From Asticcacaulis aquaticus (GTDB taxonomy: Bacteria > Pseudomonadota > Alphaproteobacteria > Caulobacterales > Caulobacteraceae), in assembly GCF_028550415.1 (NCBI RefSeq), contig NZ_JAQQKX010000003.1:186001-250000 (forward strand): a stretch of 64,000 nucleotides of DNA, in the 5' to 3' direction. Made by a program: the position numbers and the translations under genes. The notes beneath the pieces are model-generated. The model was not told where the DNA came from. It did not search any database and worked only from the letters and a program-made list of their open reading frames with translations. This document shows positions 2,304 to 36,411 of this stretch, piece after piece. Each line of letters opens with the position of its first letter. Within the stretch, counting starts at the first letter, position 1.

Positions 2304-2385
2304 CGTTGTGCGGCGCATTATGATTTTGGCTTTCTGATTATCGTTTGCAAATCGGCAGGTTATTTTCATATATACTCCGTTAACT

Positions 2386-2919: not shown

Positions 2920-2925
2920 CAAAAA

Positions 2926-2955: not shown

Positions 2956-2996
2956 TATATCATGGGGTTTGGGGGCTGTGCCCCCAAGCCTTTTCT

Positions 2997-4430: not shown

Positions 4431-4749
4431 TGTCCGCTCTCCCGGAAGATATGAAAGAATGCTGCGCGATTATGGTAGCGCTAACTTTGGCCGCCTGTGG
4501 TCGCGCAAATGCCGCCCTGCGTCAACCATGTCCGGCTAAAAAAGTAAAATGCCGGAACGGTATGGATCGCTGCGCAGATCGGCAGGTTCGAATACGCGGC
4601 CCTTATATAGACAAAAGTCTGACAAATTAAAGAGCGAAAGCCTCATGCGATCTTGTAATTTTGGGTAATGCCTTTTGAGATGCGCCGGACTCAGAACCTG
4701 TTACACCGTCAACGACTGTATTTTCAGGCTTTTTAAAGTGAGGCACAGC
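4431..4749. other. Divergent intergenic region
   Basis: About 320 bases between the aldehyde dehydrogenase and the aminotransferase starts. It must hold both promoters. I see no convincing -35/-10 pair, terminator, RNA gene or repeat. One GACTC (a CcrM-type GANTC site) lies near 4687. Confidence 0.4.
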
Positions 4750-5907: not shown

Positions 5908-5934
5908 GCTCTCGCGGTTTGGTTCGCATTAATT

Positions 5935-6176
5935 GAATGGCCCCCACCACCGCATCTAGCGCTTCGCGCGTCGTGCGGTCCCCGGCACCGGCCGCCCGGC
6001 TCCCCGCCATTATTCCTTATGTGGTTTCGTCTGAGGTAATGGCAGGGAGGTACAAGGAACTGTGTTTTTTCATCTCTCCCTGACCGTATCGCGGTTTATC
6101 CGCACAATGAAAACGGTCGGGGAGGGGGACCGCGCGAGCGAACGTAGTGAGTGAGATGTGGTGGTGGGGGCCATTC
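5935..6176. repeat. Palindromic repeat element with 17-bp terminal inverted repeats
   Basis: GAATGGCCCCCACCACC at 5935-5951 is exactly repeated in inverted orientation at 6160-6176. The 242-bp interior contains further GC-rich hairpins and codes for nothing obvious. A 20-base core, GTGAGATGTGGTGGTGGGGG (6151-6170), recurs exactly at 58173-58192, so this is a dispersed family. It looks like a REP/MITE-type non-coding element sitting upstream of amtB. Confidence 0.8.
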
Positions 6177-6253
6177 GATGACTCAGTATGAGCAAAGGAC
6201 TTCCCCCCGCGTTGCAACACGCTGAAATCCCATTTGTGAAGTTTTTTGCCGGA

Positions 6254-6269
6254 TGGCGCAAAATTTGCT
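6254..6269 (+). promoter_or_regulatory. Sigma-54 (RpoN) promoter of amtB
   Basis: TGGCGCAAAATTTGCT fits the -24/-12 consensus: GG at 6255-6256 and GC at 6267-6268 with exactly ten bases between. Transcription would start near 6280, leaving a leader of about 128 bases. Ammonium transporter genes are classic NtrC/RpoN targets, which supports the call. I did not find a clean NtrC palindrome upstream. Confidence 0.8.
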
Positions 6270-6407
6270 CGCTTTTCGGTAAATTTTCGCGCAAAGAGCA
6301 AAAATGCAGGAAAACATTTGACGAAAGCCGCCCGGCCCGCTGGACCGCGACGCTTTTGCGGATGCGAGTTTCCTGAAAAATAAAACGACCAATCGACCGA
6401 GACATCT

Positions 6408-7691: not shown

Positions 7692-8121
7692 GACCCGGAA
7701 CCCACAACAGGGCAAAGGGGCTAACCGGAACCGGTCAAGGCAAGCCCCGCTCAAGATCAAAGTGGAACGACCCAAAACCGGATACGGAAACGCCCCTCAG
7801 GATTTGACAGACTTCGTAATCGAAGTTTGGCAGACACTGGGGGGTTTGCATGTCTATTACGCATATGCACAGATTTACGCAGGTCTTCGGAAATGCTAGG
7901 TCTGTAAGGGGTAGGCAGCATAAAAAGTATAAATTGAAACGACTTCGATAAATTTCTCACGCTGTGGGGTTTTTAATCGGGAATCGACGGGAATCTGCAT
8001 TTTCCGCTTTGCATAACCGGACTTTTGCGCTTTACGAGCGTTTTAGTGCGCTAAAACAAAACGGACACCGAAAACCTTCCTTAAACGGAAGAGTCCGCAC
8101 CGAGTTATAAGGGTTAAGCCT
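7692..8121. other. Intergenic region between amtB and gltD
   Basis: A 430-base gap with no convincing gene. It should hold the gltDB promoter. The second half is AT-richer than its surroundings. A palindrome lies 65 bases before gltD (separate entry), and ACTTCGTAATCGAAGT near 7813 is another inverted repeat. No good sigma-54 match with correct spacing was found. Confidence 0.4.
8040..8057. promoter_or_regulatory. Palindromic operator-like site upstream of gltD
   Basis: GTTTTAG (8040-8046) and CTAAAAC (8051-8057) form a perfect inverted repeat around TGCG, 64 bases before the gltD start. Its symmetry and position fit a binding site for a dimeric regulator. No regulator can be named from sequence. 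Confidence 0.45.
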
Positions 8122-9567
8122 ATGAGCTATGAGACGAACCGCTTCGTCGTTGAACATAAGAAAACGCCAAGCAAGGCTGAGGCGAAGACCCGAATTAACA
8201 ACTTCGGTGAGATTTATGCCGACTTCAAACCGGGGCAGGCCGACAAGCAGGCCTCGCGCTGCGCCCAGTGCGGCATCCCGTTCTGTCAGTCGGGCTGCCC
8301 GCTGCAAAACAACATCCCCGACTGGCTGCGCATGACCGCCGAAGGGCGTTATGAGGAGGCTTATCGCCTGTCGTCGGCGACCTCGGCCCTGCCGGAAATC
8401 TGTGGCCGCATCTGTCCGCAGGACCGCCTGTGCGAAGGCTCGTGCGTGCTGGAACAATCCGGCTGGGAAAACGTCACCATCGGCGCGGTCGAGCGTCACC
8501 TCGGCGACCTGGCGTTTGAGAACGGCTGGATCGAGCCCATCGTCCCGGTGCAGGAGCGTGACCAAAGCGTCGGTATCATCGGCGCGGGTCCGGCGGGCAT
8601 CGCGGCCGCCGACCGACTGCGCACGCTGGGCTATAAGGTCACCATCTATGATCGCTACGACCGTGCGGGCGGCCTGCTGACCTATGGCATTCCGTCGTTC
8701 AAGCTGGAAAAGGATGTCGTGGCGCGCCGCACCGACCGTCTGGCCGCGTCGGGCGTCGAGTTCGTGCTCAACTGCGACATCGGTGAAGACGTCACCTTCG
8801 AGGAACTGCGCGAAAAGCACGACGCGATCCTCGTGGCAACCGGTGTCTATAAGACGCGCCGCCTGACCGTGCCGGGCTGCGGCTCGACGGGTGTCGTCGT
8901 GGCGCTGGACTACCTGACCATGGCGAACAAGGAAGGCTTCGGCTACAATGTCGAAGAAGCCGCCGAAGCGCATCTGAACGCCAAGGGCAAGCACGTCGTC
9001 GTCATCGGCGGCGGCGACACGGCCATGGACTGCGTGCGCACCGCCACCCGTCAGGGCGCGAAGTCGGTCACCTGCGTCTATCGCCGTGACCGCGCCAACA
9101 TGCCGGGTTCCGACCGCGAAGTGACCAATGCTGAAGAAGAAGGCGTGTCGTTCGAATGGCTGTCGGCCCCCAAGGCCGTACTGGGCGACGCCGACCACGC
9201 CACGGGCCTGCGCATCCAGCGCATGCGCCTGACCACGCCGGACGCGCAGGGCCGTCAGGGCATCGAGGATATCCCCGGTGCCGAATCCGACCTCCCCGCC
9301 GATCTGGTCATCGAGGCGCTCGGTTTCGAGCCGGAAAACATCCCGGTCATGTTCAATCAGCCGGGTCTCGAAGTCACCAAGTGGGGCACCATCAAGGTGC
9401 AGGCCGGTGAGTTCCAGACCTTCGTGCCGGGCGTTTTCGCGGCGGGCGACATCGTCCGTGGCGCGTCGCTGGTCGTGTGGGCCGTCCGCGAAGGTCAGGA
9501 CGCCGCCGCCGACATCCACCACTATATTCAGTCCAATGTTTCCGTGTCTCTGGAGGCCGCGCAATGA
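8122..9567 (+). CDS. gltD: Glutamate synthase small (beta) subunit GltD
   Basis: NADPH-oxidising FAD subunit of glutamate synthase, 481 residues. It passes electrons through N-terminal Fe-S clusters to GltB. The first 110 residues hold the Cys-rich ferredoxin-like region (RCAQCGIPFCQSGCP and CGRICPQDRLCEGSC). A FAD-binding GAGPAGIAAADRLR and an NADPH-binding VIGGGDTAMDCVR follow. Length is normal. The stop overlaps the start of gltB (ATGA), so the subunits are translationally coupled. Confidence 0.96.
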   Translation: MSYETNRFVVEHKKTPSKAEAKTRINNFGEIYADFKPGQADKQASRCAQCGIPFCQSGCPLQNNIPDWLRMTAEGRYEEAYRLSSATSALPEICGRICPQDRLCEGSCVLEQSGWENVTIGAVERHLGDLAFENGWIEPIVPVQERDQSVGIIGAGPAGIAAADRLRTLGYKVTIYDRYDRAGGLLTYGIPSFKLEKDVVARRTDRLAASGVEFVLNCDIGEDVTFEELREKHDAILVATGVYKTRRLTVPGCGSTGVVVALDYLTMANKEGFGYNVEEAAEAHLNAKGKHVVVIGGGDTAMDCVRTATRQGAKSVTCVYRRDRANMPGSDREVTNAEEEGVSFEWLSAPKAVLGDADHATGLRIQRMRLTTPDAQGRQGIEDIPGAESDLPADLVIEALGFEPENIPVMFNQPGLEVTKWGTIKVQAGEFQTFVPGVFAAGDIVRGASLVVWAVREGQDAAADIHHYIQSNVSVSLEAAQ

Positions 9568-12500
9568 CGACCACGTCCGGTTCCTCGTTCGCTTACGAAC
9601 TCTATCATCGTAACCGCAAAAACCTGATCGACGCGCATGCCTACGACCCGGCTTCGGAAATCGATGCCTGCGGCGTCGGCGTGGTCTGCTCCATCGACGG
9701 CTCTGCCCGTCGCGACGTCGTCGAGCTGGCCGTCAAGGCGTTGAAAGCCCTGTTCCACCGCGGTGCGGTCGATGCCGACGGCAAGTCGGGCGACGGTGCG
9801 GGCATCATGCTGTCGGTGCCGCAGGACTTCTTCCGCGAGCAGGTGCGCAATATCGGCCACGAGCCGCGTCCGGGTCCCGTCCTCGTCGGTCAGGTCTTCC
9901 TGCCGCGCGCCGATCTCGGCGCTCAGGAAGCCGCACGGACCATCGTCGAGTCGGAAATCCTCCGCTCGGGCTTCTATCTCTATGGCTGGCGTCAGGCTCC
10001 GGTCGACGTGTCGCAACTGGGCACGCGCGCCAATTCCACGCGCCCGGAAATCGAACAGATCATGATGGCCGCGCCGGAAGGCCTGACGGATGAGGCGCTG
10101 GAACGCGCCATGTTCCTCTGCCGCCGCCGCATCGAAAAGCGCGTCGATGAAGCCAATCTCGACTGCTATCTGTGCTCCTTCTCGTCGAAGACGCTCATCT
10201 ATAAGGGCATGTTCCGCGCCGAGCTGGTCGACGACTTCTATCTCGACCTGAAAGACCCGCGCTTCGCCTCCAGCGTCGCGATCTTCCACCAGCGCTTCTC
10301 GACCAACACCTTCCCCGAATGGCGTCTGGCCCAGCCCTTCCGCATGCTGGCGCACAACGGTGAAATCAACACCCTGCGCGGCAACGTCAACTGGATGAAG
10401 TCGCACGAAATCCGCATGGCGGCGGCGACCTTCGGTGAAAACGACAAGGACGTGAAGCCGGTCATCCAGCCGCGCGGTTCGGACTCCGCCGCGCTCGACA
10501 ACGTGTTCGAACTGCTGGTCCGCGCCGGTCGCTCGGCGCCGATGGCCAAGGCCTTGCTGCTGCCGGAAGCCTGGTCGAAGCAGGCCGTGACCATGCCGGA
10601 ATCGCACCGCGCGCTCTATGCCTACTGCAACGCCGTGATGGAGCCGTGGGACGGCCCCGCCGCCGTCTGCGCCACCGATGGCCGCTGGGTCATCGCCGGT
10701 AAGGACCGCAACGGCCTGCGTCCGCTGCGCGTCACGCAAACCCACGACGGCCTGCTGATCGTCGGCTCCGAAGCGGGCATGACCGGCGTATCGGAAGACC
10801 GCGTCTCTAAGCGCGCCACCATCGCGCCGGGCCGCATGATCGCGGTCGACCTTGAGGCCGGTCAGTATTTCGGCGAGGACGAGATCCTCGACGCGCTGGC
10901 GGGCAAGCACGACTACACGCAGTGGCTGGACAACATGGTCGATGTCGATTCGATCATCGAGCCGGGGCCGGAGCCGCGCTCCTTCCACGGTGAGGAACTG
11001 GACCGCCGTCAGATCGCGGCGGGCTTCACCCTCGAAGACCTCGACACCGTGCTCGATGCCATGGTCAAGGACGGCAAGGAAGCCATCGGTTCGATGGGCG
11101 ACGACACGCCGCTGGCGGTTCTGTCGAACGAGTGGCGCCCCCTGTCGCACTATTTCCGTCAGAACTTCGCGCAGGTGACCAACCCGCCGATCGACCCGCT
11201 GCGCGAAGAAGCCGGCATGTCGCTCAAGACGCGTTTCAAGAACCTCGGCAACATCCTCGCCGAAGACGAAGCCCAGACCAATGTGCTGGTCATGGACTCG
11301 CCGTTCATGACGACCGGCATGTACGACCGTCTGCTGGAAACCAGCAATGTCGGTCAGGTCGCCGAACTGGACTGCTCGTTCCCGCTGCCGGAAGAGGGTG
11401 CGAAACCCGGTGCCGCCCTGCGCGCCGTGCTTGACTCGATCCGGGACGAGGCCGTGGCCGCCGTTAAAAACGGTGCGGGCATGATTGTCCTCACCGATCA
11501 GAACGCCGGTCCCGACCGCATGGGCGTGCCGATGATTCTGGCGGCGGCGGGCGTTCACGCGCGCCTCGTGCAGGAGGGCCTGCGCTCGTTCGTTTCGATC
11601 ATCGTTCGCTCGGCCGAAGCCATGGACAGCCACGCCTTCGCGGTGCTGGTCGGCGTCGGCGCGACGGCGGTCAACCCGTATCTGGCGCTGGAGCTGATGC
11701 AGGAGCGTCTGGACAAGGGCCGCTACGGCAGCCAGACCTCGTACAAGTGCTTCATGAACTACAAGAAGTCCATCGAGGCCGGTCTGATGAAGATTCTGGC
11801 CAAGAAGGGCATCTCGATCATCTCGTCCTATCGCGGCGGCTACGAATTCGAAGCGCTGGGCCTGTCGCGGGCGCTGGTGGCGGAGTTCTTCCCCGGCGTG
11901 ACCTCGCGTATTTCGGGTATCGGCCTCGCCGGTATCGAAACCAAGCTGAAGGCCCTGCACGACACGGCGTGGGCGTCGAAGCGCGCCCTCATCCCGATCG
12001 GTGGCTTCTACAAGATGCGCGCCGCCGGTGAGACCCACTACTATCAGCCGAAGCTGATCCATCTGCTTCAGGACGCGACGACGCGCGGCGATTACAAGAC
12101 CTTCAAGACCTATTCCAACATGGTCGCGAAGATGTCGAAGGACACGCCGACCGCGCCGCGCGACCTGCTCGACTGGGCGCCCAAATCCGCGCCCATCGCG
12201 CTGGAAGAGGTCGAATCGGTCAACGAAATCCGCAAGCGGTTCGTCACGCCGGGCATGTCGCTGGGCGCACTCAGCCCCGAAGCGCACGAGACCCTGAACA
12301 TCGCCATGAACCGCATCGGCGCGCGCTCGGTGTCGGGTGAGGGCGGCGAGGACCCGGAACGTTACGTTCGTCGTCCGAACGGTGACAACCCGAACTCGGC
12401 CATCAAGCAGATCGCCTCGGGCCGTTTCGGCGTCACGGCGGAATATCTGAACCAGTGCCGCGAAGTCGAAATCAAGGTCGCGCAGGGTGCCAAGCCCGGC

Positions 12501-14090
12501 GAGGGTGGCCAGCTTCCGGGCTTCAAGGTCACGGAATTCATTGCCCGTATGCGTCACTCGACGCCGGGCGTGGGCCTGATCTCGCCGCCGCCGCACCATG
12601 ACATCTATTCGATCGAAGACCTGGCGCAGCTCATCTACGACATCAAGCAGATCAACCCGAACTGCCGCGTCACGGTGAAGCTGGTCTCGCAGTCGGGCAT
12701 CGGTGCGGTCGCCGCGGGCGTCGCCAAGGCCAAGGCCGATGCGATCCTCGTCTCCGGTCAGGTCGGCGGCACGGGCGCGTCGCCGCTCACCTCGATCAAG
12801 TTCGCCGGCCTGCCGTTCGAACTGGGCCTGTCGGAAGCGCATCAGGTGCTGACGCTGAACAACCTGCGCGGCCAGATCCGTCTGCGTTCGGATGGCGGCA
12901 TGCGCACGGGTCGCGACATCGTCACCGCCGCCATGCTGGGGGCCGAAGAGTTCGGCATCGGCACGGCGTCTCTGGTGGCCATGGGCTGCCTCATCGTGCG
13001 TCAGTGTCAATCGAACACCTGCCCGGTCGGTATCTGCGTGCAGGACGAACGTCTGCGCGCCAAGTTCACCGGCACGCCGGAAAAGGTCATCAATCTGTTC
13101 AGCTTCATCGCCGAGGAAGTGCGCGAAATCCTGGCCTCTCTGGGCCTGCGTTCGCTCGACGAAGCCGTCGGCCGCACCGATCTGCTGCGTCAGATCTCGC
13201 GCGGCGGGGCGCACCTCGACGACCTCGACCTCAACCCGCTGCTGGTCAAGGTCGAGCGCGATCCGTCGGCCCCGGTCACCTTGCCGCATGAGATCAATGA
13301 GGTCGCCGATACGCTGGACGCTCAGATCGTCCGTGACGCCGTGCCGCTGATCCAGCGCGGTGAGAAGATGTCCCTGACCTACGACGTGCGCAACACCATG
13401 CGCGCGGTCGGCACGCGCACCTCGCACATGCTGGTCAAGAACTTCGGCGACAAGCTGGCCGATGCCCATCTGACCCTGCAACTGCGCGGTTCGGCAGGTC
13501 AGTCGCTGGGGGCCTTCGCGGTCAAGGGCCTGTTCATCGACCTCAACGGCGAGTCGAACGATTACGTGGGTAAGGGCCTGTCGGGCGCGACCATCGTCAT
13601 CCGTCCGAAGGTCTGGCAGAACGGTCAGATGCTGGCCGGGAACACCAACCTCTACGGCGCGACCTCGGGCAAGCTGTTCGTGGCGGGCCGCGTCGGTGAA
13701 CGCTTCGCCGTCCGTAACTCTGGGGCCACGACCGTGGTCGAAGGCGTCGGCGCGCACGGCTGCGAATATATGACCGGCGGTAAGGTCGTCATCCTCGGCA
13801 AGACCGGCGCCAATTTCGGCGCGGGTATGACCGGCGGTGTGGCCTATGTCTGGGACCCGGAAGCGACCTTCCCGAACTTCATCAACCCGGAAGGTATCAC
13901 GCTGCGTCCGGTGCCGGAGAAGGACGAGGCCGAGTTGAAGGCGCTGATCGCGGAGCACTTCGCGCTGACGCAATCGCCGCGCGCCGAGGCCATTCTTGAT
14001 GACTGGGCCAATGCTCTGAAAACCTTCGTTCAGGTCATGCCGAACGAGATTTTGGCGATACAGGCGAAACAAACCGCCGCAGTAGCCTAA
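9564..14090 (+). CDS. gltB: Glutamate synthase large (alpha) subunit GltB
   Basis: Catalyses glutamine plus 2-oxoglutarate to two glutamates. The protein has 1508 residues. C36 in EIDACGVGVV is the amidotransferase nucleophile, exposed after removal of a 35-residue propeptide. The central part and the TIM-barrel synthase domain follow (GEGGEDPERY, KPGEGGQLPG, QVGGTGASPLTS), and a 3Fe-4S Cys cluster is visible in CQSNTCPVGIC. The C-terminal beta-helix (GGKVVILGKTGANFGAGMTGG) is intact. The open frame extends upstream inside gltD, but the ATG at 9564 is the start that overlaps the gltD stop. A terminator follows. Confidence 0.97.
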   Translation: MTTTSGSSFAYELYHRNRKNLIDAHAYDPASEIDACGVGVVCSIDGSARRDVVELAVKALKALFHRGAVDADGKSGDGAGIMLSVPQDFFREQVRNIGHEPRPGPVLVGQVFLPRADLGAQEAARTIVESEILRSGFYLYGWRQAPVDVSQLGTRANSTRPEIEQIMMAAPEGLTDEALERAMFLCRRRIEKRVDEANLDCYLCSFSSKTLIYKGMFRAELVDDFYLDLKDPRFASSVAIFHQRFSTNTFPEWRLAQPFRMLAHNGEINTLRGNVNWMKSHEIRMAAATFGENDKDVKPVIQPRGSDSAALDNVFELLVRAGRSAPMAKALLLPEAWSKQAVTMPESHRALYAYCNAVMEPWDGPAAVCATDGRWVIAGKDRNGLRPLRVTQTHDGLLIVGSEAGMTGVSEDRVSKRATIAPGRMIAVDLEAGQYFGEDEILDALAGKHDYTQWLDNMVDVDSIIEPGPEPRSFHGEELDRRQIAAGFTLEDLDTVLDAMVKDGKEAIGSMGDDTPLAVLSNEWRPLSHYFRQNFAQVTNPPIDPLREEAGMSLKTRFKNLGNILAEDEAQTNVLVMDSPFMTTGMYDRLLETSNVGQVAELDCSFPLPEEGAKPGAALRAVLDSIRDEAVAAVKNGAGMIVLTDQNAGPDRMGVPMILAAAGVHARLVQEGLRSFVSIIVRSAEAMDSHAFAVLVGVGATAVNPYLALELMQERLDKGRYGSQTSYKCFMNYKKSIEAGLMKILAKKGISIISSYRGGYEFEALGLSRALVAEFFPGVTSRISGIGLAGIETKLKALHDTAWASKRALIPIGGFYKMRAAGETHYYQPKLIHLLQDATTRGDYKTFKTYSNMVAKMSKDTPTAPRDLLDWAPKSAPIALEEVESVNEIRKRFVTPGMSLGALSPEAHETLNIAMNRIGARSVSGEGGEDPERYVRRPNGDNPNSAIKQIASGRFGVTAEYLNQCREVEIKVAQGAKPGEGGQLPGFKVTEFIARMRHSTPGVGLISPPPHHDIYSIEDLAQLIYDIKQINPNCRVTVKLVSQSGIGAVAAGVAKAKADAILVSGQVGGTGASPLTSIKFAGLPFELGLSEAHQVLTLNNLRGQIRLRSDGGMRTGRDIVTAAMLGAEEFGIGTASLVAMGCLIVRQCQSNTCPVGICVQDERLRAKFTGTPEKVINLFSFIAEEVREILASLGLRSLDEAVGRTDLLRQISRGGAHLDDLDLNPLLVKVERDPSAPVTLPHEINEVADTLDAQIVRDAVPLIQRGEKMSLTYDVRNTMRAVGTRTSHMLVKNFGDKLADAHLTLQLRGSAGQSLGAFAVKGLFIDLNGESNDYVGKGLSGATIVIRPKVWQNGQMLAGNTNLYGATSGKLFVAGRVGERFAVRNSGATTVVEGVGAHGCEYMTGGKVVILGKTGANFGAGMTGGVAYVWDPEATFPNFINPEGITLRPVPEKDEAELKALIAEHFALTQSPRAEAILDDWANALKTFVQVMPNEILAIQAKQTAAVA

Positions 14091-25061: not shown

Positions 25062-25133
25062 AATGCCTTGAAATGCGTCTCAGGCCGTGGCCTAAAGCTA
25101 TGCATACTTGCAGTTGCTGTGTGGACCGACCGG

Positions 25134-26066
25134 ATGCCTATCCCCGATTATCAAGCTCTGATGTTGCCCGTGCTGCGTATGGCGGCAGTGAGAGAGACTC
25201 GTGTACCTGACGTAGCTGATCGTATCTCCGAACTGTTGGGACTCACTGAGATCGAAAGAGAGGCGTTGTTGCCTAGCGGTCGGCAAAGATTACTTCACAA
25301 TCGCATCCATTGGGCCAAATTTTACATGTCCAAGGCCGGATTGATTGACAGCCCTTCGCGGGGACGTTTTGTCGCAAGTGAAGAAGGTCGTAATCTGCTT
25401 GCCAAGAATCCCAGTTTTATCGATGTGCAGACGCTTAAAAACTACCCGGCCTTTTTGGAGTTCTACTTCACTAACAATACCACTTCTGACAATTCGGAAA
25501 TTCCGCTGGCTCCATCTTCCGTAGTTGAAGTCTCAAATGTAGCTACGCCGGAAGAACAAATCGACTCCGCTCAAACCGTATTGCATCAGGCTTTAAAAAC
25601 AGACCTGCTTCAACGTATTTTGGCACAAAGTCCGGCTTTTTTCGAGCGCGCCATTGTCGATCTACTCGTGAGCATGGGTTACGGGGGCAGTCATGAAGAC
25701 GCTGCGAGACGGCTTGGTAAAACAGGGGATGGTGGTGTTGACGGTGTGATCGATGAGGATCGCCTCGGCCTTGATCGTATTTATGTACAAGCCAAGCGTT
25801 ATGCGCCGCATATCGGTGTTGGGCGCCCCGAGGTTCAGGCATTTGTTGGTAGCCTAGTTGGCTTTGGGGCGGCTAAAGGTGTTTTCGTCACAACATCCAG
25901 CTTCAGCATGCCAGCCACAGATTTCGTACGTCACTTGCCTCAACGCATTGTATTAATTGACGGAGATCGTCTCGCGGATTTGATGATTGAACACGGTGTT
26001 GGTGTACGTGTCGCGCGCACCATTGAGGTGAAGCGGTTGGATGAAGATTTTTTTATTGAAGATTAG
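25134..26066 (+). CDS. mrr: Mrr-type restriction endonuclease (modified-DNA dependent)
   Basis: A 310-residue type IV restriction enzyme, expected to cut DNA carrying foreign methylation. The N-terminal 95 residues resemble the Mrr winged-helix domain (LLGLTEIEREALLPSGRQ, LHNRIHWAKFYMSKAGLI). The C-terminal endonuclease has the PD-(D/E)xK-like core KTGDGGVDGVI followed by YVQAKRY, with D and QxK in place, and GVFVTTSSFS beyond. The ATG at 25134 (MPIPDYQ) is the normal Mrr start. The gene is distinctly lower in GC and codon bias than its neighbours and stands alone directly after tRNA-Leu, both signs of horizontal acquisition. Confidence 0.92.
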   Translation: MPIPDYQALMLPVLRMAAVRETRVPDVADRISELLGLTEIEREALLPSGRQRLLHNRIHWAKFYMSKAGLIDSPSRGRFVASEEGRNLLAKNPSFIDVQTLKNYPAFLEFYFTNNTTSDNSEIPLAPSSVVEVSNVATPEEQIDSAQTVLHQALKTDLLQRILAQSPAFFERAIVDLLVSMGYGGSHEDAARRLGKTGDGGVDGVIDEDRLGLDRIYVQAKRYAPHIGVGRPEVQAFVGSLVGFGAAKGVFVTTSSFSMPATDFVRHLPQRIVLIDGDRLADLMIEHGVGVRVARTIEVKRLDEDFFIED

Positions 26067-28118: not shown

Positions 28119-28673
28119 CTATTTGATCATGATGCGATACCTCAGACTGAAGTTGGACCCGGCGCGGAAGGTGCCGCTGAGCGTGACGCGGATATTGGTT
28201 ATGTTGGCGTCATAACCGTCTGCGTCGGCCGTCGGCGTATAGCCCCAGGTCGCGCCGTTATCGTTGGAAAAGGCTATCGAATCCGTCCCACTGCTCAGGC
28301 CGCCGTAGGTGTAGCTCAGATCGCTGCCCAGAAGGCCGAGGCCGAGGAGATTGTCGTCGTAGAAGGCGACCGGTCCTGTGGTGACCAGATTGACACTATT
28401 CAAGCTGAGCGAGCCCAGTGCACCGACATAGAATTTCGTGCGCGGCGGCAGGGCGTCGGTGATCGCCACCGGCGTCACCGTGGTGAAGATGCCGTTGGGA
28501 TTGGTGATCTTCACCGTATAGTCGACGACGGCGCCGGGGATAGCCTTTGGGCTGGTGATGCCGTTGAGCGGGTCCGACATCAGCAGCGACGATTTGGCGA
28601 TCGTCAAAGCTGCGGCGTTAGCGTTCAGGGGTAAGCACAGCAGGCCGAAAAGAAGCAGAAACAGGCGTTTCAT
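28119..28673 (-). CDS. Secreted DUF11-domain protein, last gene of the surface cluster
   Basis: A 184-residue protein with a Sec signal peptide (MKRLFLLLFGLLCLPLNANA) and one DUF11-type immunoglobulin-like domain. Its segment SDPLNGITSPKAIPGAVVDY matches the C-terminal half of the 367-residue protein encoded at 33729-34832 almost motif for motif, so the two are paralogs. The chosen ATG lies one base after the stop of the giant barrel gene, pointing to coupled expression. The C-terminus (GSNFSLRYRIMIK) ends in a beta strand like the other cluster members. The function is unknown; a secreted or surface subunit is inferred. Confidence 0.72.
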   Translation of the reverse strand: MKRLFLLLFGLLCLPLNANAAALTIAKSSLLMSDPLNGITSPKAIPGAVVDYTVKITNPNGIFTTVTPVAITDALPPRTKFYVGALGSLSLNSVNLVTTGPVAFYDDNLLGLGLLGSDLSYTYGGLSSGTDSIAFSNDNGATWGYTPTADADGYDANITNIRVTLSGTFRAGSNFSLRYRIMIK

Positions 28674-28674
28674 C

Positions 28675-31600
28675 TTAGTGTTTCCCCAATCGTTGGGCGG
28701 CGTTGGCGAACGTCGTCTGGTCGAACTTGAAGCGGGCCGTGACATAGGCCCCCTGACGCGTATAGCGCGAGTCGTCGAAGTCACGGTCGTGGAAGCCCGC
28801 AATATTATAGCCTGCGGTCAGCCACACATTCTTGGCCGGCGAGAAGCCGAGCGACGGGCCGTAGGTGTAGTTCACGGCACCGGTGGTCCAGGCGTGCTGG
28901 ACGGCGAGGTTGAACCCGACGTCGAAGCGTTGGCCCAGGTCGTGGCGGAATTCGACGCCGAGAAGGTCGACGAACCCGTCGTAGCTGTCGTCGGCGAAGC
29001 GGCCTTCGACATATTTCGCGCCGTAATAGGCGGACACTTCGTAACCGTTGGCGCGGTCGTCATTGTCGTCCATGCGGGCGAATTGGGTGAAGTTGATCGC
29101 CAGATTGTTGACGATGCGGGTGGTCTGCTGCGCGAAGCTGCCCGAATTCACAGCCAGCACGTTGTTACGGCTCACCCCGGCATCGGCATTTTCATGGCGC
29201 AGTTCCAGACGCTCCAGCACCGACCAGCGGCTGTCGAGCGGGCGGTAGGCGATGGCGACGTCGGCGGCGGCAAAGCGCGTCGTCTGGCCGTCATGGCGAA
29301 CCACTTCGTAGGCGCGCAGGCCGGAGGCGACGGTCTTGCCTTCGCCGAGGCTGCGCAGGACGTTGGAGGTTACCCCCCAGCGATCGGAGGTATCCGAGGT
29401 ACGGCGCTCCAGGCGGCCGGTCCACGACCAGTCGCTGGCGCGGTAGGTGGCGCCGACCGTGGCGGCCACGTAGTCGCCATTGCCGCTGTCGCCGTCGGTA
29501 TTCGTCGTCACCGGACGGAAGGGATTGACGCCCGTCGGCGTCTGACCGGACATGGTTTGGCTGGCGTCGAAGGTCGCGTCGACGGTCCAGTTCTTGCTCA
29601 GCGGTACCGACTGGTTCAGGCCGAGGCTGGCGAAGGTGCGCGCGCCGTTTTCACCGATGGCCTGCTGGTTGACGGTGGTCGAGACCTTGGCCCCGGCCCA
29701 CGGCGCGACCTCGAAGCCGAGCTGCGTATTGTGGGCCTTGAAGGCGTCGCCCTCGGCGATTTCGTGGCTGGCCAGCAGGCGGATACCGTCGCGGATCTTG
29801 TAGGCGGCGGAGATCTGATGGCGCATCGGGAAGTCGGACGAAGCCTTGTCTCCACCGAGCGCGAACTGAACCTGAGCCGACAGTTGCAGCGTATCCTTGA
29901 GGAAGGACTGGCTGCCGCCCAGGGTCAGCAGACGGCTGCGGTTGGTGGAGTCCGGCTGCGTCTCATCGAAACCGCGATCCGAGGTGGCTTCCAGCCCGGC
30001 GAATACGGTGCCGTTGGCGCGGCGGTATTCGAGGCGGGCATTGCCCGAGGTACGCGTTTGCGGGCTATCGATCTGGGTTTGCTGCCACAGGCCGCCGGTC
30101 AGGCGCCATGTGTCGTTCAGGCGGACTTGCCCATCGATGCCGTGCTTGAAGGTGCCGCTTTCGCCGAGGTTCTGCTGCCCCAGACCGAAGCCGTGGTCCT
30201 GACGGCGGGCATAGGCCAGAACGTCGGCGCGGGCGGAATGATGTTCGACCTCGACCAGATAGGCCCCGGCATCGCGGTTGGCGGCATCGCCACCCTTGGC
30301 GGCTTCGACGCGCAGTTCGGTGTTCTCGAAGATCTGCGCCTTCAGGTCGAGCCCGGCGACGCTGGCGTCATTGTCGGATTCGTCCTTCAGCAGGCTGGCC
30401 CCGACGACGACCTTATCGGTCAGTTGCGCGGTGGCGCGGGCCCCGGCGACGAGGCGCTGATCGCCATTGCCGTCGATTTCGTAGTCGGCGACGATGAAGA
30501 TCGGGTTGCGGTCGGCGTCCCAGGCCATGACCGGCTCACGGAAAGTCAGGGTGCCCGACAGCGGGTCGATGTCGTAGTCGATGTGACGCGTCAGCAGGCG
30601 GCTGTCGATGATCTTTTCCGAGCGGTAGCGGTCGCGGGTTTCCAGCGTGATCTTGTCGGAATTGGCGATAATGTCCGAGGCGCTCAGGCGGTAGGGACCG
30701 CTCAGGCCGTTGCCGCGGATTTCGTCGCGGGCATAGCGCTGATCCGAGCGGGCAGCGAAGGCCTTCACGCTGATTTTTTCGCCGTGGTACTCGGTCTTGA
30801 CGCCGTTCAGGGTGCGCGAGAAGCGGGCCAGTTGCGTGTCGATCATACCCGTCTCGAAATCGCCGAACAGGGCATAGTATTCGCGGCGCTCCAGACGCAG
30901 ATACAGCTTGCGTTGGGTGGCGGCATCGTAGGCTTGCTGGGTGCCATCGCCATAGACGGTGTAGTACTTGTTCGGGTCGATGACCGACAGCAGGCCGGTG
31001 CGGGCGTCGAACTTGCGGTCGGAGTCATAGGCCATGGTCATCAGCCACTCACCCTTGACGCGGCCCTTGGCGTAGAAGGCCAGTTGCCCGTCGGTGATGG
31101 TGTCTTCTTCACCGGCCTTGAAGGCCTCAGCCTTGTCGGACAGGGTGTCGAAGCCGAGGGTGCCCGCGCCGAAGCCGACGACGACCCACTTCTGCTGACC
31201 GGCCTTCAGCCACGGGCGCAGTTCGGACTTTTGTTCGATGCCGTCCTGCGTGAAGCGGAAGACGAGGTGGACGGTTCCGGCCTGCATGGTGGGTTGCAGG
31301 GCGACGAAGGCGATACCGTCGTCACCGACGACACGGGCGGTCGGCAGGTTGCCGTCGAGGCCCGACAATTGACGGTTTTGTTCGGCGGCGGCGGTCTGCG
31401 CGGCGACATAGGGCTGATCGACCATGAAGGTGGCCATGGTTCCGGCGCGAACGGGCTTGCCGTCGCGGTCGGTCAGGCGCACCGCGATCATCGGCTTTTG
31501 CACACCGTCGGCGATCAGGCGGGAATGTTCCGGGGCCAGAGCGGCCTTCACCGGGGTGTTGGAATAATGGACCGTGCGGGTCAGGACCTTGGCCACCGAG

Positions 31601-33657
31601 GCGTCGGCATTCAGGACACGGGCTTCGAGGGCGTTGTCGCCTTCTTTCAGCGGCAGGCCGGTCCACACGCTGACGGCGATGTCACCGTCGCGGTCAGCGC
31701 CGTCGAAAGCGAGCGCGTCGGGGGTGACGCCATTGACGGTCAGGGCAACGCGTTGGGTGGGGGCGTGCTTGATGGCGACGCGCAGAGCCGGGGCACGGGG
31801 GTTGTGATCGATTTCCGGGAACAGCCAGTCGATGCCGGGGGCCTGACCGATGAACCAATTGGTGCGGCCACCCGAAGCAACGGCATCATCGGCGATTTTC
31901 AGCGAAACAGACGGGTCTGTCTCTACCGGATCGGCTCCATTTCGGCGAACCCGGAAGTCAACGCGGATAAGGGAGCCGCCTTGTCCTTCGATAAATCTGG
32001 AAATGTCAGACCCCGCCCAGCGCGTATCGTTAGCGCAGGCGCTGGGGATCAGGTTTTTGGCCAGGGCATTGGTGTCGATCTGCACGACGTGGCGACCTTT
32101 GCGGGCACCTTCGATGTGATACAGGCCGTCGCGATCGGTCACGACCGAGGTGCCGTCTTCGAGCAAAATGCGGACATTGGCCACGCCCTTGCGCTTTTCG
32201 GGTGGCAGGACGCAATCGCCTTCGGTGACGCGGCCGACAATGGTCAGGGCGTCGCTGTTGAGGAAGGGGCGGATGCGGACTGAGGCGCTGGCCTCAAGGC
32301 TTTTCACTGAATTGCCGTCCACCCAGGCCGTGGCACGGTTGACGGCTTCGCCGGTACGCGCATTGGGCAGGACATCGGTGACGTAGCGAATAGCGGTGGC
32401 GCTACCGGGGGCGATATCGCCGATATCAAAGATCAGGGTGCGTCCGTCGCCGGATACGGCGGGTTCCGCCGCGCCGCGCGTCGAACCCTTGCGATAGCGC
32501 TGGCCGGACGGCAGGCTGTCGGTGATCATCACCTTGCGCATGGTCCAGGTGTCGGGATTGCTGACGCTCAGTTGATAGGGGATGATGTCGCCCGCCGAGG
32601 CTTCGCGGACGGAGGTCGTCTTCTGCATTTGCAGGCTGCCGTGCGGCAGAGGATCGATCGGGATATCGACTTCGAGGGGCTCAGGCGCGCTGAGGACGAA
32701 GGATTTCCCATAAGATGCGTCAATAATGGTGTAGATATCGTGCTCGGTTGTCGGAATATCGGCGGGTGCGACCAGCGAGGGCGCCACATAGCCTTCCGGC
32801 GGCGTGACTTTCAGGCGATAGGTCCCGGCATGGGTCATCGGGAAGCGGTATTCGCCGTCACCGAAGGTGTATGTCAGGCCCCCGGAATCGGTCACCGGGC
32901 GGCCGCTGACGACGGTGGAGGGATAGGCGGTCACGCCGTCGTCGGCAAACACCTTCGCCGGTTGGCCGGTCGCCTCGTCGATCAGGGTGACCGTCGCGCC
33001 ATTGATCAGGGCGCCGGTTTTGGAATCGAAGACCTGACCGAACGGATCGATCAGGATGGTGTCTGAGGTTGGCGTGGCTAAACCTTCGGCGTTAAAACGG
33101 ATGGTGACGGTCAGGTTTTTCGGGAATGGCGGGATGCACACCTTGGCATTCGAGGTCGAAGCGGTTGTTGAGACGCCGCCAGCGAAAACGCCCGTATTGA
33201 CATCGGTTTCAGTCAGGATGAATTTCGCGGTGCGCCCGTCCGACAGCGCGCTGTCGATGATCTGGGTTTCGCGGACATTGGGGTCTTTGTTGCCGTTCGG
33301 ATAGTCCAGCACCATACCGGTGGTCTGGTCCGTATGGCTGTCGTCCTCCGGCATGGTCGCCAAAACGTCCGGAGAGATAGGCGCGGCGTGCACCAGACGG
33401 GACGCCATATCCACGCAGGTCAGTTCGCTGTAGTTGAAATTGCGCGGCATGCGATGGAAGCGCAGCCGGGCGTAATGCAGTTCGTCCTTGGTCGTCAGAA
33501 CCGTGCTGTTGGACGAAACGGCGCGGGGACCGCCGCCTCTGGTGAAGGTCAGTTGAGCCGTATTTTCGATAGAATTCGCCTGCACAACCGCCGGGGCCGT
33601 TGTGGTTATGCTCGCCAAAGCAATGATCAGGGACGCAATTTTACGCGATAAGGCCAT
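28675..33657 (-). CDS. Giant DUF11 protein with predicted C-terminal outer-membrane barrel
   Basis: A 1660-residue protein, the core of a five-gene cluster. A signal peptide ends near residue 27 (VVQA). The mature N-terminus has the cluster motif SIENTAQLTF...SSNSTVL. Beta-sandwich domains follow: an SdrD/CarboxypepD-like region (about 220-330), a DUF11 domain near 345-460 (ASAGDIIPYQLSVSNP, MITDSLPSGQRYRKGS), a second regulatory-like domain (TIVGRVTEG) and Ig-like segments to about 830. The last 800 residues alternate polar and hydrophobic residues in long Tyr/Arg/Asp-rich strands (LRLERREYYALFGDF, ISAAYKIRDGIRLLASHE), ending GAYVTARFKF, as in outer-membrane barrels. The family is uncharacterised as far as I know. 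Confidence 0.75.
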   Translation of the reverse strand: MALSRKIASLIIALASITTTAPAVVQANSIENTAQLTFTRGGGPRAVSSNSTVLTTKDELHYARLRFHRMPRNFNYSELTCVDMASRLVHAAPISPDVLATMPEDDSHTDQTTGMVLDYPNGNKDPNVRETQIIDSALSDGRTAKFILTETDVNTGVFAGGVSTTASTSNAKVCIPPFPKNLTVTIRFNAEGLATPTSDTILIDPFGQVFDSKTGALINGATVTLIDEATGQPAKVFADDGVTAYPSTVVSGRPVTDSGGLTYTFGDGEYRFPMTHAGTYRLKVTPPEGYVAPSLVAPADIPTTEHDIYTIIDASYGKSFVLSAPEPLEVDIPIDPLPHGSLQMQKTTSVREASAGDIIPYQLSVSNPDTWTMRKVMITDSLPSGQRYRKGSTRGAAEPAVSGDGRTLIFDIGDIAPGSATAIRYVTDVLPNARTGEAVNRATAWVDGNSVKSLEASASVRIRPFLNSDALTIVGRVTEGDCVLPPEKRKGVANVRILLEDGTSVVTDRDGLYHIEGARKGRHVVQIDTNALAKNLIPSACANDTRWAGSDISRFIEGQGGSLIRVDFRVRRNGADPVETDPSVSLKIADDAVASGGRTNWFIGQAPGIDWLFPEIDHNPRAPALRVAIKHAPTQRVALTVNGVTPDALAFDGADRDGDIAVSVWTGLPLKEGDNALEARVLNADASVAKVLTRTVHYSNTPVKAALAPEHSRLIADGVQKPMIAVRLTDRDGKPVRAGTMATFMVDQPYVAAQTAAAEQNRQLSGLDGNLPTARVVGDDGIAFVALQPTMQAGTVHLVFRFTQDGIEQKSELRPWLKAGQQKWVVVGFGAGTLGFDTLSDKAEAFKAGEEDTITDGQLAFYAKGRVKGEWLMTMAYDSDRKFDARTGLLSVIDPNKYYTVYGDGTQQAYDAATQRKLYLRLERREYYALFGDFETGMIDTQLARFSRTLNGVKTEYHGEKISVKAFAARSDQRYARDEIRGNGLSGPYRLSASDIIANSDKITLETRDRYRSEKIIDSRLLTRHIDYDIDPLSGTLTFREPVMAWDADRNPIFIVADYEIDGNGDQRLVAGARATAQLTDKVVVGASLLKDESDNDASVAGLDLKAQIFENTELRVEAAKGGDAANRDAGAYLVEVEHHSARADVLAYARRQDHGFGLGQQNLGESGTFKHGIDGQVRLNDTWRLTGGLWQQTQIDSPQTRTSGNARLEYRRANGTVFAGLEATSDRGFDETQPDSTNRSRLLTLGGSQSFLKDTLQLSAQVQFALGGDKASSDFPMRHQISAAYKIRDGIRLLASHEIAEGDAFKAHNTQLGFEVAPWAGAKVSTTVNQQAIGENGARTFASLGLNQSVPLSKNWTVDATFDASQTMSGQTPTGVNPFRPVTTNTDGDSGNGDYVAATVGATYRASDWSWTGRLERRTSDTSDRWGVTSNVLRSLGEGKTVASGLRAYEVVRHDGQTTRFAAADVAIAYRPLDSRWSVLERLELRHENADAGVSRNNVLAVNSGSFAQQTTRIVNNLAINFTQFARMDDNDDRANGYEVSAYYGAKYVEGRFADDSYDGFVDLLGVEFRHDLGQRFDVGFNLAVQHAWTTGAVNYTYGPSLGFSPAKNVWLTAGYNIAGFHDRDFDDSRYTRQGAYVTARFKFDQTTFANAAQRLGKH

Positions 33658-33728
33658 GACTGTCCGGCCCGCACGGAAAGAACCCGTGCGATGGCCGCCT
33701 TCACCAGAGAAAAGCGGGGGTAGTTTTT

Positions 33729-34832
33729 TTAGTTGATGACGACGCGGAAGCGCGCCGAAACCGTCGTCAGCGGCAGGATGACCGGCATGGTCGCCGTCAC
33801 CTTGGTGCCATCGAAGTTACCGCCGTTGATGTCGGTTTCGTCGAGGCCCGTGGCATCGTCGTCTTCCGGCGTGCCGTCGATGACGCAGGTGCCCAGAAGC
33901 GTCGTGCCGCCGGACCAGATCGAGCCCGGCACATAGGTCGTGCCCGCGGGGATATTGTCGGTGATCGAGATGTCGGTCACCGAGCCCGGGCCGCCATTGG
34001 TGACCATAAGGCAGTATTCGACGACGGCGCCCGGTACGGCCTTGGGAGACAGAATGCCGTTGACCGGATCGGAGATGATGGTGGCCTTCTTGACGAAGTT
34101 GATGGCCGCCGTACCGACCGTATATTGGTCGTAGGCCGAGGACTTGCCGTCGCGCAGACCGTCGAGGATACCGGCGTCGTCGGCAAAGACGATGTCGACG
34201 CCCGCGTCGGTGCCCGCACCGCTGGTGCCGACCACGTCGATGCCCAGAGCGCCTGCACCGCCGCCATTGGCAGTGACGGCGGTCAGGCTGACACCGGCGA
34301 TGGCACCGATAGGACCGGTGGCCGGGACGTCGGCGACGATGAAGACCGTCTTGGAGCCGTCGGCGGCCAGTTCGTCGATGAAGGTCGCCGTATCGGTACC
34401 GGCCTGATAGATGCCGTCGTCATTGGCATCGACATAGACATGCACATTGGTCATGTCCATGTTGTCGACACCGCCGAAGGCCGTCAGGGACAGGGTGCCC
34501 TGCTGACCGGCGACCAGACGGAAGTCCTGCGTCGCATTGGTCAGGTTGGTGACCTTGAAGGTCGTGACCTGAGCCGTGGCGCCGAAGAAGACGTTGGTGG
34601 CCGAGTTGCCGACTTCGGTAACGGTCAGATTGACCTTCTTGTCGACGACGAAGCTGGCGGTGTTGGAGGTCACTTCGGGCTGCGGCGTGCCGCCGACCGA
34701 ATATTTCACCTTGGCGACGTTGGTGATCTCAGTACCGGCGACCGTGGCGGTCGCGGCCTGAGCGCCCCCGGCCACAATGGCCAGGCTGGCGGTGGTTCCC
34801 AGCAGGATTGCGGGGAGGGTACGCTTGATCAT
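33729..34832 (-). CDS. Secreted DUF11-domain protein with EF-hand-like loop
   Basis: A 367-residue secreted protein: the signal peptide ends at AQA (about residue 26), then EITNVAKVKYSVGG, the N-terminal motif shared by the cluster. VYVDANDDGIYQAGTD near residue 130 looks like a calcium-binding DxNxDG loop. A DUF11 domain at 250-310 contains SDPVNGILSPKAVPGAVVEY and ITDNIPAGTTYVPGS. The C-terminus is a beta strand (SARFRVVIN). It lies between the giant barrel gene and a small DUF11 gene, with 71-base gaps on both sides. It is rich in Thr, Gly and Asp, typical of secreted structural proteins. Confidence 0.75.
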   Translation of the reverse strand: MIKRTLPAILLGTTASLAIVAGGAQAATATVAGTEITNVAKVKYSVGGTPQPEVTSNTASFVVDKKVNLTVTEVGNSATNVFFGATAQVTTFKVTNLTNATQDFRLVAGQQGTLSLTAFGGVDNMDMTNVHVYVDANDDGIYQAGTDTATFIDELAADGSKTVFIVADVPATGPIGAIAGVSLTAVTANGGGAGALGIDVVGTSGAGTDAGVDIVFADDAGILDGLRDGKSSAYDQYTVGTAAINFVKKATIISDPVNGILSPKAVPGAVVEYCLMVTNGGPGSVTDISITDNIPAGTTYVPGSIWSGGTTLLGTCVIDGTPEDDDATGLDETDINGGNFDGTKVTATMPVILPLTTVSARFRVVIN

Positions 34833-34903
34833 GTCTTGCCCTTTCTGTGCTGACGAGATCGGTTACAAATTCACCTGCTGGTGAATGGGGGTCATGACGG
34901 CGC

Positions 34904-35362
34904 TTAGTTAAGCACCGCCTTGAAGGAGACCTGGCCGGACGCGCCCGGGGCTACCGGGGTTTTGAGCGTCCAGCGCAGGTGTGTGACGTCGGCAGCCGTC
35001 GCCAAACGGCCGCCGATGTGCAGGGTTTCGAGACGTGCGAAGGTCTTGCCATCGACCGAGACGTCCGGAACGGAGGAACCGCCGACAGCCGCGCGATAGG
35101 CGACACCCTTCGGCAGGGGATAATCGAGCACCACATCGGCCACCGGCGTCTTGCCGGTGTTGCGGTAGCTGAGGGTATAGACCAGCGTATCGCCGGGAAC
35201 GGCGGATTTGAGCGGCACGGTTTTGATCGTCGTCGTGCCATCCTTGGCAGCAATACGCTGTTCCTTGACCACGTTGAGGTTCAGCGTGACCGGATCGGCG
35301 GCAAAGGCCGGGAGTGCCGCGGCGATAAGGCCGAAAGTGCAGAGAAGACGGGGCAGTTTCAT
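34904..35362 (-). CDS. Small secreted DUF11-domain protein
   Basis: A 152-residue protein with signal peptide MKLPRLLCTFGLIAAALPAF and a single DUF11-like beta-sandwich domain (KSAVPGDTLVYTLSYRNTG, VLDYPLPKGVAYRAAVGGSS). Its layout matches one repeat of the larger neighbours. It follows the 340-residue gene by 26 bases and precedes the 367-residue gene, so all are probably one transcript. No catalytic residues are visible; a structural or chaperone-like role is only a guess. Confidence 0.72.
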   Translation of the reverse strand: MKLPRLLCTFGLIAAALPAFAADPVTLNLNVVKEQRIAAKDGTTTIKTVPLKSAVPGDTLVYTLSYRNTGKTPVADVVLDYPLPKGVAYRAAVGGSSVPDVSVDGKTFARLETLHIGGRLATAADVTHLRWTLKTPVAPGASGQVSFKAVLN

Positions 35363-35388
35363 TCTGAGGCTCCTTTGGCTTTTGCCGT

Positions 35389-36411
35389 TTATTGAATGGT
35401 GACTTTGAAGGTGACCGTGCGGGTCGTCTCGCCGACAGGATCGCCGAGATTTATTTCCAGCGATTGACGGGTCGTATCGAACTGGCCGGCGTCGCTGTCG
35501 GCGGCATCGGTCAGGACCGTGCCGTCGAGCGTCAGGCTGGCGGGGACATAGGTCGTCCCGGCGGGAATGGCGTCGATGATCCGTGCACCACCGGCGCGGG
35601 CGCCCACGGGGAAACGAGCGATCAGGGTGTAGGTGATGACGTCGCCGCGTGTCGGCTGAGGGCCGGACTGGGTCGTGGTGGTCAGGGACTTGGTCAGGGT
35701 GACGCCGCCCGTGCCGCTGTCGTCATTGTCGGCCAGCAGTTGCACCGTCGCGGTGGCGGTACCGGTCGTTCGCCCGGTCATGGCGTCCATGCCGTCCGCG
35801 CCGGCACCGGGGAAAAGGGTGCCTGCCGGGCCGCTGCCCGTGCGCGAGGTTGCGGTGACGCTCAGGGTGGTGCGTTCGTCATCGGCCACATCGCCGATAC
35901 GGCTGACGACCAGTACGGTGACCGTTTCCCCTGCACGCAGGGCAATCCCGGTCCCGGTGACGGGCGTATCGACGGCGGCATCGAAGACACCGTCGCCATT
36001 ACGATCGATCCACAGGCCGCGTACGGTCGTCCTGGGGTTGTTCAACTCGGCCGTGAGCACGAACGTGTCGCCATGGGTGCCGCTGTTGGTCAGGAGGAAG
36101 GTCGCGCTAAAGTCGTCCTGCAAGGCCTGCACCGTCAGCGGGTCGGAAGCCGGGCCTTGCAACCGAACGTCAAGCAACTGGGTTAACGGCAGGGTCTGGG
36201 TGTTGGAGGCCAGACGTACCGGTGCGCCGCCGAGCGTGGTCTGAAGATAGGCGGTGTTGGTAATGGCATCGGCGGCCACGACATCGCCGGCCTGCAGGCC
36301 TGAAAGGCCTGTTGCACAAGCGAAAAAAACGCCGCGGCAACCCACCGTCAGGGGGCGTCCGGAGGAAGCGTTTCTACGCCTCATATGGATGTGGGAACAG
36401 GAAAAACGCAC
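35389..36411 (-). CDS. Secreted DUF11-domain protein, first gene of the surface cluster
   Basis: A 340-residue secreted protein. The GTG start at 36411 is favoured by AGAGG (36419-36423) seven bases upstream; the ATG at 36384 is the alternative and would shorten the n-region by nine residues. After the signal peptide comes AITNTAYLQTTLGG...LASNTQT, the cluster motif, then DRNGDGVFDAAVDTP, an EF-hand-like DxNxDG loop, and a C-terminal DUF11 domain (TRGDVITYTLIARFPVG, IIDAIPAGTTYVPASL). It has the same architecture as the 367-residue protein two genes on. The gene probably carries the promoter of the five-gene cluster. Confidence 0.72.
   Translation of the reverse strand: MRFSCSHIHMRRRNASSGRPLTVGCRGVFFACATGLSGLQAGDVVAADAITNTAYLQTTLGGAPVRLASNTQTLPLTQLLDVRLQGPASDPLTVQALQDDFSATFLLTNSGTHGDTFVLTAELNNPRTTVRGLWIDRNGDGVFDAAVDTPVTGTGIALRAGETVTVLVVSRIGDVADDERTTLSVTATSRTGSGPAGTLFPGAGADGMDAMTGRTTGTATATVQLLADNDDSGTGGVTLTKSLTTTTQSGPQPTRGDVITYTLIARFPVGARAGGARIIDAIPAGTTYVPASLTLDGTVLTDAADSDAGQFDTTRQSLEINLGDPVGETTRTVTFKVTIQ

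Follow-up and report, generated by a model that had tools for sequence, protein, structure and literature searches.

How might five adjacent secreted proteins be joined into a single surface structure? The question is raised by a gene cluster of Asticcacaulis aquaticus, contained in a stretch of 64 000 nucleotides (contig NZ_JAQQKX010000003.1; the whole stretch is referred to below as the window) in which five genes, designated A to E, lie head to tail on the minus strand at positions 28119–36411. A preliminary description of this DNA had proposed a surface appendage or matrix equipped with an outer-membrane anchor or exporter of its own and made of five neighbouring secreted DUF11-type proteins, three of them with a common N-terminal motif. 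The sequences suggest a more specific meaning, because this motif matches the C-terminal strand pair that is missing from DUF11 domains of the cluster and so suggests how the parts join. On balance we think it probable that the cluster encodes a surface fibre formed by donor-strand (hairpin) complementation of split DUF11/CLIPPER domains, the joints of which are probably locked by isopeptide bonds.

DUF11 domains of the cluster

The DUF11 domain (PF01345), since renamed CLIPPER and solved in 2025, forms an intramolecular Lys–Asn isopeptide bond with a catalytic Asp (the triad of PDB 9IFR is Lys715, Asp748 and Asn806), and the bond is absent from some DUF11 domains (PMC12617251). The Pfam model exceeds its curated cut-off in the products of C and D only, and the NCBIfam DUF11 repeat model TIGR01451 passes its cut-off of 24 bits in four products (A, B, C and D), E falling just short at 21 bits. 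Signal-peptide-like N-termini are recognizable by eye in all five proteins, that of A being long and less typical. The coordinates and the DUF11 character previously assigned to the five proteins are therefore right, at a sub-cut-off score for E, and the other two motifs described were found where expected: the xITNTA...GG...SNT motif at the N-termini of A, C and D, and a D-x-N-x-D-G loop in each of two proteins, A (residues 136–141) and C (residues 135–140).

A complete Lys–Asp–Asn triad within one domain is present only in the internal domain of D (positions 32248–32640), in which Lys346, Asp380 and Asn440 correspond to the triad of 9IFR (E-value 1.6e-9 in a profile search, with the Asn in register) and are kept in 22/22 aligned relatives, window D included. 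The other four proteins (A, B, C and E) have no such triad in their C-terminal DUF11 domains, which end about 10 residues ahead of the would-be Asn strand. Taking Tyr425 of D as the reference point, the Asn of D-type proteins sits 15 residues further on in 21 of the 22 and 16 in the remaining one; the chains of A/C-type proteins end 5 residues past the equivalent of Tyr425 in 21/24 and 6–9 residues past it in the others, and the aligned B-type chains end at 5 residues in 23/23, with longer tails in a few of 22 further B-type proteins (such as those of loci L080, L132 and L133). Since the chains stop so soon after this position (at most 9 residues in the A/C type), the C-terminal domains of these A/C-type and aligned B-type proteins lack the Asn strand. 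Searches of solved structures with profiles return 9IFR for both the D type and the A/C type; the B-type profile finds chiefly sialidases, with 9IFR at E 0.21, and a search with the D sequence alone gave nothing relevant.

The residues of the triad are nevertheless all present in the shaft-type proteins, at opposite ends of the chain. Gene C (34832–33729; 367 aa) is the main example: a candidate donor hairpin directly after the signal peptide (34635–34754), with the invariant Asn38 at 34719–34721, is followed by a middle Ig-like domain that holds the D-x-N-x-D-G loop and by a C-terminal acceptor DUF11 domain (33732–34115) with the invariant Lys248 and Asp292, which ends 5 residues past the equivalent of Tyr425 of D. 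Gene A (36411–35389; 340 aa) encodes a similar secreted protein, with a donor hairpin at 36157–36270 (Asn52 at 36256–36258, assigned from the N-terminal alignment and the chimera test below), its loop, and an acceptor domain at 35392–35709 with Lys241 and Asp280, where the stop codon precedes any Asn strand. Only 7 columns are invariant among 24 aligned A/C-type proteins, Asn38, Lys248 and Asp292 being three of them, and no Asn is invariant in their C-terminal domain. In 41 further A/C-type proteins Lys is present in 41/41, Asp in 41/41 and the donor Asn in 39/41, giving totals of 65/65, 65/65 and 63/65, respectively, although the added sequences were fitted to a fixed alignment, which biases them towards agreement, and the counts here and below are of sequences, some closely related, and not of independent events.

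The N-terminal segments of A, C and D contain the xNxA motif of the missing Asn strand, and the motif that the three share looks like the missing strand pair. In D the hairpin lies at 33478–33579, with Asn32 at 33562–33564, and was assigned from the alignment, where the Asn is kept in 22/22, and from the chimera test; this Asn is found in 10/16 of the D proteins of loci L120–L135. When a profile of the complete D domains was compared with a Novosphingobium A-type protein, model positions 17–93 matched at the C-terminus and positions 94–129 at the N-terminus, the latter very weakly (2 bits). A and C thus have the incomplete Ig-like domain and the N-terminal donor that are seen together in chaperone-usher subunits, and the split-domain logic is, as far as sequence can tell, well supported.

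Chimeric domains

In the chimera test, tails of 40 residues were added to ten A/C-type C-terminal domains, hand-picked from the loci at hand, and the products were scored with Pfam DUF11, with one shuffle per case. The own donor hairpin gave 37.4, 31.0, 34.8, 34.9, 31.4, 39.3, 51.2, 41.0, 40.2 and 34.7 bits in the ten cases, and the D hairpin belonging to each locus 32.5, 29.6, 36.8, 32.7, 32.1, 42.1, 51.4, 42.7, 40.0 and 36.5 bits. The corresponding scores were 28.3, 24.6, 27.3, 25.9, 29.0, 31.7, 41.4, 36.0, 26.6 and 33.6 bits with the shuffled own hairpin and 29.7, 24.1, 27.5, 24.6, 30.3, 34.3, 40.5, 35.8, 34.4 and 34.2 bits with a mid-protein segment. Own and D hairpins each outscore both controls in 10/10 cases, by margins of 0.5 (case 10) to 13.6 bits. 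The top-scoring stretch extends into the tail in 9/10 cases with the own hairpin, 9/10 with the D hairpin and 8/10 with the shuffled one; as the reach is similar with shuffled sequence, it is the gain in score that constitutes the evidence.

B-type domains scored higher with a donor than with its shuffled form in 5/5 cases (36.0/24.5, 21.7/14.4, 29.7/20.2, 27.8/20.5 and 32.6/20.3 bits). For E-type domains the pairs were 18.6/13.7, 22.4/23.0, 26.6/18.9 and 41.2/35.4 bits, with neither member of one further pair giving a DUF11 match. In a search with a profile centred on the Asn, Asn32 of D and Asn38 of the A/C type rank 2 and 3 among 31 Asn-dominated windows (6 and 11 when the profile is shifted one residue off register), but just 377 and 413 among all 2120 windows.

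A proposed donor-strand fibre and the likely roles of its subunits

From this inventory, in which A and C have a donor and an acceptor, D a donor and its own complete DUF11 domain, and B and E an acceptor only, a simple assembly can be proposed. In A and C the N-terminal hairpin would be the part that the C-terminal DUF11 domain is without, and the hairpin of one subunit would complete the DUF11 domain of the next to give a head-to-tail chain. This chain would begin with E as its tip, continue with C and A as its shaft, and terminate at D, the donor hairpin of which would be joined to an outer-membrane region that anchors or exports it. An intermolecular Lys–Asn isopeptide bond probably locks the joints, since the acceptors retain Lys and Asp and the donors retain Asn. 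A donor model finds matches in the A/C-type and D proteins and in no B or E protein of the loci examined; it was built from 24 A/C-type and 22 D sequences, which match by construction. It also matches weakly in one further long protein (L077, 1754–4789), and in L128, L129, L134 and L135 both the A/C-type and the D proteins fall below its threshold, their donors having been read by eye.

Gene E (28673–28119; 184 aa; ATG at 28673 is a likelier start than TTG at 28802) encodes an acceptor-only DUF11 protein with Lys27 and Asp73. The two residues are kept in 18/21 and 19/21 E-type proteins, respectively, the exceptions being those of L058, L071 and L100. Several E-type proteins carry other N-terminal domains (P_proprotein in two of ten scanned), and E is likely to be the tip subunit because many homologues bear such extra domains, as a tip adhesin would; the comparison is with the tip adhesins of chaperone-usher pili.

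Gene B (35362–34904; 152 aa) encodes a small secreted acceptor-like DUF11 protein without a donor hairpin and without Asp at the catalytic position. Lys is present in 13/23 aligned and 9/22 further B-type proteins, 22/45 in all, and the catalytic-position Asp in none of the 23 and 4 of the 22 (L128, L129, L131 and L134). B may act as a chaperone or reversible cap that holds donor hairpins.

The C-terminal region of D

Gene D (33657–28675) encodes 1660 aa comprising the donor hairpin, a CarboxypepD_reg domain, the complete DUF11 domain, an Ig-like region and a probable barrel, and we read it as the outer-membrane base. Its CarboxypepD_reg and DUF11 matches are above cut-off and its SdrD_B match is below (23.5 against 29.7 bits), so that of the giant DUF11/SdrD-like barrel protein described earlier the DUF11 part is borne out, the SdrD-like part is sub-threshold and the barrel is a prediction. 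The barrel region, with its conserved N-terminal core, spans residues 820–1660 (positions 28678–31200) and, at the threshold applied, contains 22 candidate strands. The fraction of windows with amphipathic alternation is 0.183 in D 820–1130 and 0.119 in D 1130–1660, compared with 0.059–0.069 in three stretches of D 60–820 and with 0.062 and 0.046, respectively, after column shuffling. D itself has no match to a barrel family in Pfam, and some relatives of the barrel core have sub-threshold matches to Phage_OMP, OMP_b-brl, KdgM, OmpA_membrane and BBP2. An outer-membrane barrel is the likely identity of this region, judging by these patterns, and a surface appendage with its own anchor or exporter is still the best reading of the cluster, the gene set of which is conserved (below); the closed barrel is a predicted part of it.

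Distribution of the gene set

The gene set recurs across Pseudomonadota. Relatives of D (E≤0.001) occur in 44/299 Caulobacterales, 11/289 class-wide and 57/398 phylum-wide genomes, samples that overlap and include the window genome, and in which some matches are to the core around D 820–1130 only. The closest named relative is that of Asticcacaulis sp. YBE204 (L010), with a D that is 96 % identical, and among the other genomes of the genus D was found in just 1/24, for which reason the cluster is evidently accessory. D relatives are also found on plasmids of Novosphingobium (89 % of D, in pieces) and Acinetobacter haemolyticus (82 % of D). In the latter (L095, 6301–8504) the shaft-type gene is broken into several pieces, and the D and E types have an OmpA-family gene between them.

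The genes around D were counted by reading 48 D-type loci with flanks, the window included; L057 is apparently YBE204, L073 and L074 belong to the same genome, and the excluded loci are L100, where the contig is cut beside D, and L078, L081–L089, L097, L098, L101, L136 and L137, which are core-only or giant tandem-DUF11 cases. All 48 loci have an A/C-type gene near D (L095 in pieces), 46/48 have B, with B on another contig in the remaining two genomes, and 19/48 have E, L058 having a degenerate E-like gene only; all five genes occur together in 9/48. The arrangement is not due to chance, members of the D family being found with these neighbours in many genomes, and the conservation that the preliminary description had proposed as a check is thus seen for the A/C type and B at nearly every locus and for E at fewer. 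In what appears to be the same set of 299 Caulobacterales genomes, 42 match the A/C profile (E≤1e-8), 44 match D and 40 match both, out of the 46 with either; D without an A/C-type gene is seen in G154, G247, G270 and G304 (partial matches) and the converse in G044 and G260 (weak). B is present in 52/299. The IMG/VR contig L100 (5835–11171) has terminase-, portal- and prohead protease-like ORFs, recognized by eye, downstream of its D–E pair, which on this account adjoins a prophage-like segment.

Evidence against a fibre and alternative explanations

Several observations weigh against the donor-strand fibre. A hidden Markov model (HMM) made from the hairpin alone fails to pick out the N-termini, its scores lying within the shuffle range and its best match falling in the first 95 residues in 8/24 A/C-type and 4/22 D proteins, and hhalign, given the N-terminal segment and the cis domain, paired them at E 0.058 in a different register. 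Home-made models had given a weak result in an earlier chimera test. With a D-cis model the mean A/C-type gain is 1.3 bits compared with −0.1 for random tails, and with a tandem-repeat model there is no gain (−1.9 compared with −0.6). The hairpin raises the score of E in just 3/5 cases. AlphaFold2 models of C (4-sequence alignment, pLDDT 37) and of D 807–1660 (3-sequence alignment, mean pLDDT 27.5, unusable) failed because the alignments are shallow, and D is the sole exporter candidate identified. The catalytic-position Asp is present in 4/45 B-type proteins, and B occurs without D in 13/299 genomes, 12 of them from one genus, which points to a wider role for B; in the four of these genomes that were inspected neither D nor an A/C-type gene lies near B. 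B-type genes without D or A/C-type neighbours are seen in L138, L139 and L142 (genus g14). Lastly, some donors have Ser or Gly in place of the Asn, namely 2/65 of the A/C type and the D proteins of L128, L129, L131, L133, L134 and L135 (four from family f177), so a covalent lock cannot be universal.

These same replacements, together with the finding that the bond is not universal in DUF11 domains (PMC12617251), speak for a fibre in which the swap is real but no bond forms between chains, Lys, Asp and Asn being retained for folding. We regard this as rather unlikely, in that the A/C-type proteins conserve just what the bond chemistry requires (Lys and Asp in all 65, Asn in 63), whereas B-type domains keep neither acceptor residue (Asp 4/45, Lys 22/45).

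A second possibility, to our minds an unlikely one, is that A and C are circularly permuted monomers, self-locked secreted proteins in which the hairpin fills the C-terminal DUF11 domain of the same chain and which D displays or exports. The A/C hairpins could fold in this way, donor and acceptor being parts of one polypeptide, and auto-complementation is known for TasA and from some AlphaFold predictions of thread pilins (PMC9715654). However, E has Lys and Asp but is without an Asn strand, and D, whose own DUF11 domain is already complete, bears a donor hairpin, so that each would need a partner in trans; the match of the acceptors with the D hairpin, moreover, is about as good as with their own hairpins.

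It seems improbable that D functions as a surface adhesin or TonB-type receptor to which the DUF11 proteins are periplasmic accessories, no polymer being made at all. Several barrel-core relatives are publicly annotated 'TonB-dependent receptor' and one is adjoined by TonB/ExbBD genes, but neither D nor the eight relatives scanned have a TonB plug or receptor match in Pfam at E≤1, on which ground membership of that family was rejected, and the complementary termini would be left unexplained. Least of all do we favour the idea that the hairpin completes the adjacent middle domain, also Ig-like in look, in place of a DUF11 domain: the hairpin-only HMM gave no support for a DUF11 match, but window D has the hairpin without that middle domain and Pfam DUF11 scores go up when the hairpin is added to the C-terminal domain.

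Relation to known systems

The preliminary description knew of no characterised counterpart. This has to be qualified in view of the 2025 DUF11 structure (PMC12617251) and of the GhlA filaments of Litorilinea aerophila (PMC13319060), and holds in so far as neither is described as a split-subunit system. The proteins of the cluster share with the reported DUF11/CLIPPER cases the domain family, the triad and the use in stalks of cell-surface proteins, but those are complete domains with an intramolecular bond, whereas in A to E the Asn strand appears to be on a separate subunit; the available text of that report makes no mention of a split form, the word 'split' being absent (PMC12617251). GhlA, from the Chloroflexota, has DUF11 domains as the beads of a surface filament, a bead-on-string by cryo-EM, and differs in being one polypeptide with 49 DUF11 domains, whereas the cluster would have separate split subunits; neither 'isopeptide' nor 'donor strand' appears in the available text (PMC13319060).

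In chaperone-usher pili incomplete Ig-like subunits are likewise filled by the N-terminal extension of the next subunit, with an outer-membrane barrel at the base (PMC9715654). The cluster differs from them in that its donor would be a hairpin with the triad Asn and its base protein D itself carries a donor hairpin. Membership of the chaperone-usher class was rejected, no usher or periplasmic chaperone family being matched in Pfam among A to E at E≤1, and scans of A to E and three neighbour proteins with Pfam and NCBIfam gave no sortase family. Gram-negative fimbriae are described as assembled non-covalently (PMC7835359). Archaeal threads (Saci_0406) combine donor-strand complementation with intermolecular isopeptide bonds in one filament, but there the bond runs from the N-terminal amine of Asp24 to an Asn57 that lies two subunits away, and there is no outer membrane (PMC9715654, PMC11607397).

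A further likeness is seen in giant tandem-DUF11 proteins next to or fused with a D-like core (L098, a Phyllobacterium plasmid, 1–12853; L136, 1–10757; L101, 729–7793), with 30 DUF11 model matches in L098 and 11 in L101. Here a DUF11 stalk is again linked to the core, but as one long polypeptide of many DUF11 domains and not as separate split subunits, and the type looks like a single-chain equivalent of the cluster. Split-domain isopeptide joints are familiar from SpyTag/SpyCatcher, of which the cluster would be a natural version.

In the open-licence literature no paper on DUF11 operons in alphaproteobacteria was found, and no title among the matches listed describes a split DUF11 system. 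It is conceivable, though less likely than not, that the cluster represents a distinct class of Gram-negative surface fibre in which naturally split CLIPPER domains polymerise by themselves through autocatalytic isopeptide bonds between chains, with neither sortase nor a classical chaperone-usher system involved; its tip would have exchangeable heads, and its base would both export the chain and be linked to it covalently. If the fibre reading is true, Gram-negative bacteria make covalently joined surface fibres out of split isopeptide domains, uniting donor-strand exchange with isopeptide locking, a pairing that we found only in archaeal threads and there with other chemistry. Many Pseudomonadota genes annotated 'DUF11 domain-containing' would then acquire a function, and natural tag/catcher pairs would become available for protein engineering.

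Flanking genes and other features of the window

The neighbours of the cluster are unrelated to it: on one side lie genes for an HD-domain protein and for a small protein that matches no family, on the other a gene for a PhoD-like phosphatase. Elsewhere in the window (9528–14072) a minus-strand ORF of 1514 codons, which has no Pfam match at E≤0.001, is overlapped by a plus-strand ORF of 1537 codons. Near the cluster, at 25068–26066, lies a gene for an Mrr-type restriction endonuclease (PF04471, PF14338).

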